Source: Polaromonas sp. YR568
GTDB taxonomy: Bacteria > Pseudomonadota > Gammaproteobacteria > Burkholderiales > Burkholderiaceae_C
DNA length: 33,750 nucleotides
Reading direction: 5' to 3'
Assembly (NCBI GenBank): GCA_945860515.1
Contig: CAMARI010000008.1
Coordinates: forward strand, 1-33,750
A program made the translations under genes and the position numbers. Shown here in pieces: positions 31,016-33,628 of this stretch. The notes below the pieces were generated by a model. It worked only from the letters and a program-made list of their open reading frames with translations, was not told the origin of the DNA and made no database searches. How positions within the stretch are numbered: position 1 is the first letter of the stretch; each line of letters starts with the position of its first letter.

Positions 31016-31984
31016 TTACGCGTAGTCAACCAATACTTTTTTCATCTTCTTCATGGCCGCCACTTCAATCTGGCGAATCCGTTCCGCGCTCACGCCATAA
31101 ACCGCCGCCAAGTCATGCAGCGTCATGCCGCCTGAGCCGTCGTCGTTGACCTTCAGCCACCGCTCTTCGACAATTTTGCGTGAGCGTTCGTCCAGGCCTT
31201 GCAAGGCGGTCGCAATGCCGTCGTTGGCCAAGTTGTCACGGGCATGGGCCTCCATCAGCGCAGTTGGCTCTTGCGCGCTGTCAGCTAAATAGGCAATCGG
31301 GCCAAACGCCTCTTCGCCATCATCGCTGGGGCTCGGGTCCAGCAGTACGTCGCCACCGGACATGCGCTGCTCCATTTCAATGACCTCTTCACGCTTGACG
31401 TTCAGCGATTTGGCCATCTGGCTGATCTGGTCGTCGCTCAGCGTGTCGCGGTGGGTAGCCACGTCCGCATCGTCCTTGTAACCCTGTTTCATCGAGCGCA
31501 GGTTAAAGAAAAGCTTGCGCTGTGCCTTGGTGGTGGCCACTTTCACCATGCGCCAGTTTTTCAAAATGTACTCATGCATCTCTGCCTTGATCCAGTGCAG
31601 CGCATAGCTCACCAGCCGAACACCTTGATCCGGGTCAAAGCGCTTGACGGCTTTCATCAGGCCAATGTTGCCTTCTTGTATCAAATCACCATGCGGCAAG
31701 CCATACCCCAGGTATTTGCGCGAGGTAGAGACGACCAAGCGCAAGTGAGAGAGCACTAACTTCTCCGCCGAGGCCATGTCGTTGGAGTCGCGCAGCTGGC
31801 GTGCAAAGGTTTGCTCCTGCTCCAGTGTGAGCATGGGCAGCCGGTTGACAGCCGAAATATAGGCATCCAAGTTACCCAGAGGCGGCAACAGCGACCAAGG
31901 GTTGGCGCTGGCAACACCCGCAGTACCAGTCAGAACTGGGACAGCCAAGGCAGAGGAAGCGAGCGGATACGAGGCAGAAGACAC
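31016..31984 (-). CDS. rpoH: RNA polymerase heat-shock sigma factor (sigma32)
   Basis: RpoH directs transcription of heat-shock genes. Region 2 is visible as YLGYGLPHGDLIQEGNIGLMKAVKRFDPDQGVRLVSYALHWIKAEMHEYILKNW, the RpoH box as QRKLFFNLR (155-163), and region 4.2 helix-turn-helix as MTLHDLAAVYGVSAERIRQIEVAAMKKMK. The track starts at 32062, but that lies above the promoter. I use GTG at 31984 (322 residues), seven bases after AAAGGAG. The first 30 residues are a Ser/Ala-rich lead longer than in E. coli. A CIRCE operator overlaps the promoter. An HrcA-controlled sigma factor would tie two heat-shock circuits. Confidence 0.94.
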   Translation of the reverse strand: MSSASYPLASSALAVPVLTGTAGVASANPWSLLPPLGNLDAYISAVNRLPMLTLEQEQTFARQLRDSNDMASAEKLVLSHLRLVVSTSRKYLGYGLPHGDLIQEGNIGLMKAVKRFDPDQGVRLVSYALHWIKAEMHEYILKNWRMVKVATTKAQRKLFFNLRSMKQGYKDDADVATHRDTLSDDQISQMAKSLNVKREEVIEMEQRMSGGDVLLDPSPSDDGEEAFGPIAYLADSAQEPTALMEAHARDNLANDGIATALQGLDERSRKIVEERWLKVNDDGSGGMTLHDLAAVYGVSAERIRQIEVAAMKKMKKVLVDYA

Positions 31985-32019
31985 AGTAGAACTCCTTTGG
32001 GAAACTGCATTTAGGCTAA

Positions 32020-32049
32020 ATATTAGCACTCTGTTAGTGCGAGTGCCAA
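32020..32049 (-). promoter_or_regulatory. Sigma70-type promoter of rpoH
   Basis: On the minus strand, TTGGCA (32044-32049) and TAATAT (32020-32025) are 18 bases apart. Transcription would begin near 32012, leaving a leader of about 28 bases with AAAGGAG before the GTG at 31984. This position supports the shortened rpoH start. The CIRCE operator covers nearly the whole promoter. Confidence 0.65.
32023..32049. promoter_or_regulatory. CIRCE operator (HrcA-binding site) upstream of rpoH
   Basis: TTAGCACTC (32023-32031), a 9-base spacer and GAGTGCCAA (32041-32049) match the CIRCE consensus TTAGCACTC-N9-GAGTGCTAA at 17 of 18 positions with exact spacing. CIRCE is bound by the repressor HrcA, usually before groESL or dnaK. 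Here it lies over the -35 to -10 region of rpoH, so HrcA would block its transcription until heat stress. No chaperone gene is in the window. Confidence 0.88.
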
Positions 32050-32217
32050 ACAATAGCTCCAATGGCTTTCATAGGGTGTTGTTAATTGGTAAAAACCCTA
32101 GGAATTAGTCAGATATTGAAATCTAGCCCGTTTTAAGGCGGGTAAAGGCTAGTAGATAACGACGATGTTTGTAGGCCGCAAGAGCTGCCCATGTGGGCCC
32201 CAAGCTGGGCTGGCTGT

Positions 32218-32350: not shown

Positions 32351-33628
32351 ATGCAATACCTGAATTCACGCCGCTTTACCCTCAAAGCGCTCACCGCAGC
32401 CGTGGCCCTGACGGGCTTGTCTGCCCTGCCCTCATATGCCCAGACGGGCGGCACCATCAAAGTCGGCATTTTGCACAGCCTGTCTGGCACCATGGCGATT
32501 TCTGAAACCGTCCTCAAAGACACCGTGCTGATGGCCATTGACGAGATCAATGCCAAAGGCGGCGTCATGGGCAAGAAGCTCGAGCCTGTCATCGTGGACC
32601 CGGCTTCCAACTGGCCCCTGTTCGCTGAAAAAACCAAGCAACTGCTCGGTCAAGACAAAGTCTCCGTGATCTTCGGCTGCTGGACTTCCGTATCCCGCAA
32701 GTCGGTGTTGCCTGTCGTTGAAGAAATGAACGGCCTGCTGTTCTACCCCGTTCAGTACGAAGGTGAAGAGCTCTCCAAAAACGTGTTCTACACAGGTGCA
32801 GCGCCCAACCAGCAGGCCATCCCTGCGGTGGACTACCTGATGAGCAAAGAAGGCGGCGCTGCCAAGCGTTGGGTTCTGCTGGGCACTGACTATGTGTACC
32901 CACGCACCACCAACAAAATCCTGCGCGCTTACCTCAAAAGCAAAGGCGTGAAAGACAGCGACATCGACGAAAAATACACACCGTTTGGCCACTCGGACTA
33001 TCAAACTATCGTGGCTGACGTGAAGAAATTCTCCGCCGGTGGCAAAACCGCCGTGGTCTCCACCATCAACGGTGACTCCAACGAGCCTTTCTACAAAGAA
33101 CTCGGTAACGCCGGCCTCAAAGCCAAAGACGTGCCGGTTGTCGCCTTCTCTGTGGGCGAAGAAGAACTGCGCGGCGTGGACACCAAGCCACTGGTCGGTC
33201 ACCTGGCCGCCTGGAACTACTTCCAGTCGATCAAGAACCCGGCCAATGACGAGTTCATCAAAAAATGGGGCGCTTACGCCAAAGCCAAGGGCATCGCCGG
33301 TCACAAGGACAAGCCTTTGACCAACGACCCGATGGAAGCGACCTACATCGGCATCAACATGTGGAAGCAAGCGGTTGAAAAAGCCAAGTCCACAGACACC
33401 GACAAAGTCATCGCCGCCATGGCCGGCCAGACCTTCAAGGCACCCTCGGGCATCGTCTCCAAGATGGACGAGAAAAACCACCACCTGCACAAGTCGGTAT
33501 TCATCGGCGAGATCAAGGCTGACGGTCAGTTCAACGTGGTTTGGAAGACCCCCGGCCCGGTGAAAGCCAAGCCATGGAGCCCGTACATCGAAGGCAATGC
33601 CAAGAAGCCAGACGAGCCTGCCAAGTAA
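32351..33628 (+). CDS. urtA: Urea ABC transporter, periplasmic substrate-binding protein
   Basis: UrtA binds urea in the periplasm for the UrtBCDE ABC transporter. The 425-residue protein has a signal with a Tat-like SRRFTLK motif, cut near A30 (SYAQT). The mature protein starts GGTIKVGILHSLSGTMAISETVLKDTVLMAIDEINAKGGVMGKKLEPVIVDPASNW, and FGCWTSVSRKSVLPVVEEMNGLLFYPVQYEGEE is the diagnostic UrtA segment that separates it from LivJ-type proteins. NDPMEATYIGINMWKQAVEKA is also typical. GGAG lies upstream of the ATG. The urtB gene would be expected just past the window edge. Confidence 0.96.
   Translation: MQYLNSRRFTLKALTAAVALTGLSALPSYAQTGGTIKVGILHSLSGTMAISETVLKDTVLMAIDEINAKGGVMGKKLEPVIVDPASNWPLFAEKTKQLLGQDKVSVIFGCWTSVSRKSVLPVVEEMNGLLFYPVQYEGEELSKNVFYTGAAPNQQAIPAVDYLMSKEGGAAKRWVLLGTDYVYPRTTNKILRAYLKSKGVKDSDIDEKYTPFGHSDYQTIVADVKKFSAGGKTAVVSTINGDSNEPFYKELGNAGLKAKDVPVVAFSVGEEELRGVDTKPLVGHLAAWNYFQSIKNPANDEFIKKWGAYAKAKGIAGHKDKPLTNDPMEATYIGINMWKQAVEKAKSTDTDKVIAAMAGQTFKAPSGIVSKMDEKNHHLHKSVFIGEIKADGQFNVVWKTPGPVKAKPWSPYIEGNAKKPDEPAK

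Follow-up and report, generated by a model that had tools for sequence, protein, structure and literature searches.

What controls transcription of rpoH, the gene for sigma-32, in this Polaromonas genome, and is it a repressor of heat-shock genes that acts on it? The stretch of DNA analysed (hereafter the window) is an entire contig, 33,750 bases long, in which the initial annotation had placed a CIRCE operator, the binding site for the repressor HrcA, over the rpoH promoter. The features on which the answer depends are listed here by their coordinates in the window.

31016..31984, minus strand: rpoH (sigma-32), GTG start, 322 aa; TIGR02392 equivalog score of 384 bits (cut-off, 323)
31991..31999, minus strand: ribosome-binding site CAAAGGAGT, read in the sequence; the same motif precedes the start codon of relatives
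32013, minus strand: putative transcription start, ~7 bases (+/-2) after the -10 box, placed by promoter geometry
32020..32025, minus strand: -10 hexamer TAATAT, preceded by an extended -10 TGC, from the promoter scan; it shares its first three bases with the end of CIRCE
32023..32049, minus strand: CIRCE operator, 17/18 matches; arms TTGGCACTC and GAGTGCTAA, 9-base spacer GCACTAACA
32034..32038, minus strand: decayed sigma-E -10 box ACTAA, inside the CIRCE spacer; TCTAA or TCCAA in relatives
32044..32049, minus strand: -35 hexamer TTGGCA, from the promoter scan; the same six bases form the outer part of the left CIRCE arm
32055..32061, minus strand: decayed sigma-E -35 box TGGAGCT; TGAACCT or GGAACTT in relatives
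32351..33628, plus strand: urtA, urea ABC transporter substrate-binding protein; TIGR03407, 596 bits

We scanned the window for the CIRCE pattern TTAGCACTC-N9-GAGTGCTAA; this analysis identified a single match, at 32023-32049, with one mismatch (17/18) and the exact 9-base spacing that the initial annotation had reported. The number of sites with up to three mismatches expected in the window is 0.00, and none occurred in 100 dinucleotide shuffles. Read on the rpoH strand, the site is TTGGCACTC GCACTAACA GAGTGCTAA TAT, and the distance from CIRCE and its sigma-70-type promoter to the rpoH start is ~36-38 bases. Across the genome, only two CIRCE sites with at most three mismatches were found, one upstream of rpoH and one upstream of groES, the latter with one arm mismatched at an inner position (TTAGCAGTC); the reversed control pattern gave 0 matches in the whole genome. 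The rpoH start itself is the GTG at 31984, behind AAAGGAGTT, and the rpoH genes of relatives start at the matching position after the same motif. The longer open reading frame would start upstream of the -35 box, at a TTG (32062), and this start had rightly been dismissed as incorrect. The divergent neighbour of rpoH, urtA, lies outside the regulatory element.

A promoter scan, independent of the CIRCE search, identified TTGGCA-N18-TAATAT at 32049-32020, with TG before the second hexamer. This is the promoter that CIRCE had been said to cover, and the span of 32020-32049 given for the combination is right, with the -35 hexamer running from 32049 and the -10 hexamer ending at 32020. In relatives, the left arm of CIRCE likewise supplies the -35 hexamer as TTRGCA, and the extended -10 (TGCTAA+NAT) comes mostly from the right arm. 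The AT that completes the -10 hexamer falls outside CIRCE, at +2 and +3, and was found in 79/81 Comamonadaceae-type loci and in 108/129 loci of the order; the mirrored side, used as a control, gave 0 and 8, respectively. The conserved AT beside the right arm shows operator and promoter to be one element. We predict, with a probability of roughly 0.88, that rpoH carries a combined operator-promoter, in which the arms of CIRCE provide the sigma-70 -35 hexamer and the larger part of the extended -10, and which would be repressed by HrcA.

The element is not peculiar to the window. All 80 of the closest rpoH loci in named genomes, spanning Polaromonas, Variovorax, Rhodoferax, Acidovorax, Limnohabitans, and others, carry CIRCE with 17 or 18 matching positions, allowing A/G and C/T at the position third from each arm's outer end. 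We also sampled 150 genomes of Burkholderiales, among which DNA upstream of rpoH was readable in 128 with hrcA and 17 without, the window genome not being counted. CIRCE (≥15/18) was present upstream of rpoH in 128/128 genomes with hrcA, whereas it was present in 0/17 genomes without it, in which the best score was 13. These 17 genomes come from eight families, and four of those families include members with both hrcA and the site. In the wider class, CIRCE lies ≤400 bp from rpoH in 27/30 genomes with listed sites, and 27 of 30 rpoH loci read have a CIRCE of ≥15/18. Thus, a CIRCE over the rpoH promoter is ordinary for this group and common to essentially every HrcA-bearing relative tested. The proposal of the initial annotation that HrcA controls rpoH is strongly supported by this dependence on hrcA across genomes, together with the unity of operator and promoter, although as a prediction from comparison.

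In most relatives, we identified a second promoter at the same position. A [G/T]GAAC[T/C]T motif upstream of CIRCE is followed 16-17 bases on by TCTNA, and these are RpoE promoter boxes; GGAACTT is the sigma-E -35 as in Escherichia coli (PMC8103513). The group-wide pattern, [GT]GAACTT-N16-TCTNA, is threaded through CIRCE in several registers: GAAC starts at -16/-15, -13, or -11 relative to CIRCE, and the sigma-E -10 bases shift equally, to CIRCE positions 7, 9, or 11 (counted from 0). A strict box pair overlapping CIRCE was found in 60/129 genomes of the order, versus 0.2% when upstream and spacer bases were shuffled, and in 59/81 Comamonadaceae-type loci. When the boxes were scored for co-occurrence in the Comamonadaceae-type loci, 60 had both, 16 had neither, and 5 were discordant (Fisher 4e-12, a value inflated by relatedness). 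A tree-aware test of joint loss counted ~8 changes per box, always in the same direction where both boxes differ; with 3-4 informative independent pairs, none of them opposite (p of 0.125 or more), joint loss of the two boxes on the tree is suggestive only. Conservation within the CIRCE spacer was also considered as a preference of HrcA; we rejected this reading, as the conserved bases move together with the upstream GAAC, always 22-23 bases away from it, and their conservation is lost wherever GAAC is lost.

Based on sequence comparison, both sigma-E boxes have decayed in the lineage of the window, with CIRCE retained. A regular expression for [G/T]GAACTT-like and TCTNA-like boxes 16-17 bases apart found no match in the window, and the window box pair scored 1.0, whereas intact relatives had a leave-one-out median of 20. 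A score of 1.0 is reached by 0.14% of random draws, which places the window above most random sequence, as expected of a remnant. G324, the nearest genome, shares ACTAA with the window and carries GAAGCT, which makes sequencing error an unlikely source of the decayed boxes. A gene encoding RpoE is present in the window genome (L262:1459-2094; 257 bits, above cut-off), and the sigma-E system seems to be present even though its rpoH promoter is eroded. The frame after rpoE could, by position and look, encode an rseA-type anti-sigma factor.

It could be argued that sigma-E is the main control of rpoH here and CIRCE an accessory. The excess of overlapping box pairs in the order over the shuffled control and the presence of rpoE above cut-off are consistent with such an arrangement, as is the in vitro transcription of the rpoH (fam) promoter by SigE of Bordetella bronchiseptica, reported in a paper (PMC3490749) that mentions neither HrcA nor CIRCE. 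However, the window boxes have changed from AAC to GAG and from TCTAA to ACTAA, their score is far below that of intact relatives, and the sister genome shares the decayed -10 box; we consider this arrangement very unlikely for the window.

The reverse configuration also occurs. Two genomes without hrcA, G033 and G104, keep the sigma-E box pair upstream of rpoH, and their CIRCE has decayed; the sigma-E and CIRCE halves thus appear, by comparison, to be kept or lost separately. In both genomes the sigma-E pair adjoins an apparent remnant of the left CIRCE arm. On balance, we lean towards a broader model, in which HrcA-bearing Beta- and Gammaproteobacteria would share a three-input rpoH element of ~45 bp, with the CIRCE arms forming a sigma-70 promoter, the -10 box of a sigma-E promoter at the edge of the left arm or in the spacer, and HrcA repressing both promoters. 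Under this model, E. coli rpoH P3 would be a remnant left after loss of HrcA, and the lineage of the window would represent the opposite loss.

A search of the window genome assembly (2.94 Mb, 86% complete) did not find hrcA. This absence, along with the mismatched inner position in one arm of the groES site, would fit a relic operator, that is, a lineage that has lost hrcA and in which nothing but the sigma-70 promoter function of the sequence is left. Yet hrcA is present in 20/20 members of the genus tested, and the rpoH CIRCE is gone in all 17 genomes of the order that lack hrcA, so an intact 17/18 site predicts that the gene is there. Its location in relatives also accounts for the missing gene: in all 13 genus genomes where hrcA and rpoH share a contig, the distance upstream from rpoH to hrcA is 18.8-39.9 kb, and the window contig stops 1.8 kb upstream of the rpoH start. 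At the single genus locus read, an NAD-kinase-like gene, recognised by eye, stands in divergent orientation to hrcA. NAD kinase was detected in 14/14 control genomes, and the same search did not find it in the window assembly. With NAD kinase also missing, the contig ending short, and hrcA located that far on in relatives, the absence of hrcA is most simply, and probably, a gap in the assembly that took both genes; a relic operator is, in our estimation, slightly less credible still than control mainly by sigma-E. Lastly, the suggestion that the palindrome acts as RNA, as a leader terminator or hairpin with no operator, derives from a terminator scan that flagged a 5-pair stem GCACTAACAGAGTGC followed by TAATATTTAG, but we rejected it as barely conceivable given that 0.5 such matches are expected by chance in the stretch and that the leader RNA folds no better than shuffles (z -0.57), and further because the stem lies upstream of the putative transcription start, the spacer varies freely except at the sigma-E bases, and conservation follows the CIRCE consensus with its exact 9-base spacing and tracks hrcA.

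For the combined operator-promoter, the comparisons show the element itself, its exact overlap with the promoter, its conservation, and its dependence on hrcA across genomes; from these we infer binding of HrcA at rpoH, repression, and release upon heat. An HrcA dimer on CIRCE would cover both sigma-70 hexamers and keep rpoH low at normal temperature. In other bacteria, HrcA needs GroEL to stay active; unfolded protein would titrate GroEL, HrcA would leave CIRCE, and rpoH would be induced together with groESL. In relatives with sigma-E boxes, one HrcA site would gate both sigma-70 and envelope-stress transcription of rpoH. E. coli controls its sigma-32 level mostly post-transcriptionally, and for this reason transcriptional repression may contribute modestly.

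The initial annotation had considered rpoH an unusual CIRCE target, which is not the case in this group, where it is as regular a target as groESL. There is also a precedent, as Rodionov et al. (2004; PMC545781) predicted a CIRCE upstream of rpoH in Geobacter sulfurreducens. As given in the passages of that paper on this species, the operator, spacing, and target gene are the same and groESL is the other constant target; on the other hand, the lineage is distant, rpoH is listed for one species only, and overlap with a promoter is not described in those passages. The CIRCE in the window is a further example of this Geobacter-type rpoH site. The HrcA/CIRCE system of the Bacillus subtilis type (groESL, hrcA-grpE-dnaK-dnaJ) has the same 9-9-9 operator; however, it targets chaperone operons, whereas here the target is a sigma factor gene and the operator arms themselves make up the promoter hexamers. 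Sigma-E boxes lie before rpoH in E. coli (rpoH P3) and in B. bronchiseptica (the fam promoter, PMC3490749), as in most relatives of the window; E. coli is without HrcA, and the window differs from both in its decayed sigma-E boxes.

Among titles and abstracts, with most subscription journals outside the search, none described a CIRCE at rpoH for Burkholderia or Betaproteobacteria. Permina and Gelfand (2003), who dealt with beta- and gamma-proteobacteria, may have included rpoH among the targets of CIRCE. Literature matches to HrcA, RpoE, rpoH, and CIRCE jointly concerned other groups only, within the same limits of coverage. The composite of sigma-E, CIRCE, and sigma-70 and its reciprocal losses may be new, as no description was found in the literature searched.

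If HrcA acts as predicted, control of the sigma-factor heat-shock circuit by the repressor circuit would be the rule for the group and not an oddity of one species, and titration of GroEL would induce the whole sigma-32 regulon, beyond groESL. The nested sigma-E promoter raises the question of whether HrcA gates the envelope-stress input into the cytoplasmic heat-shock response, for which the natural losses of each half are ready-made controls.

Two further loci were observed during these comparisons. One genome (G045) has two rpoH genes, on contigs C43 and C23, each with its own CIRCE overlapping a -10 box. A contig labelled Hyphomicrobiaceae (JAURWC010000093.1) encodes an rpoH 87% identical to that of the window behind a Polaromonas-like promoter; it is probably a mis-binned or mislabelled metagenome contig.
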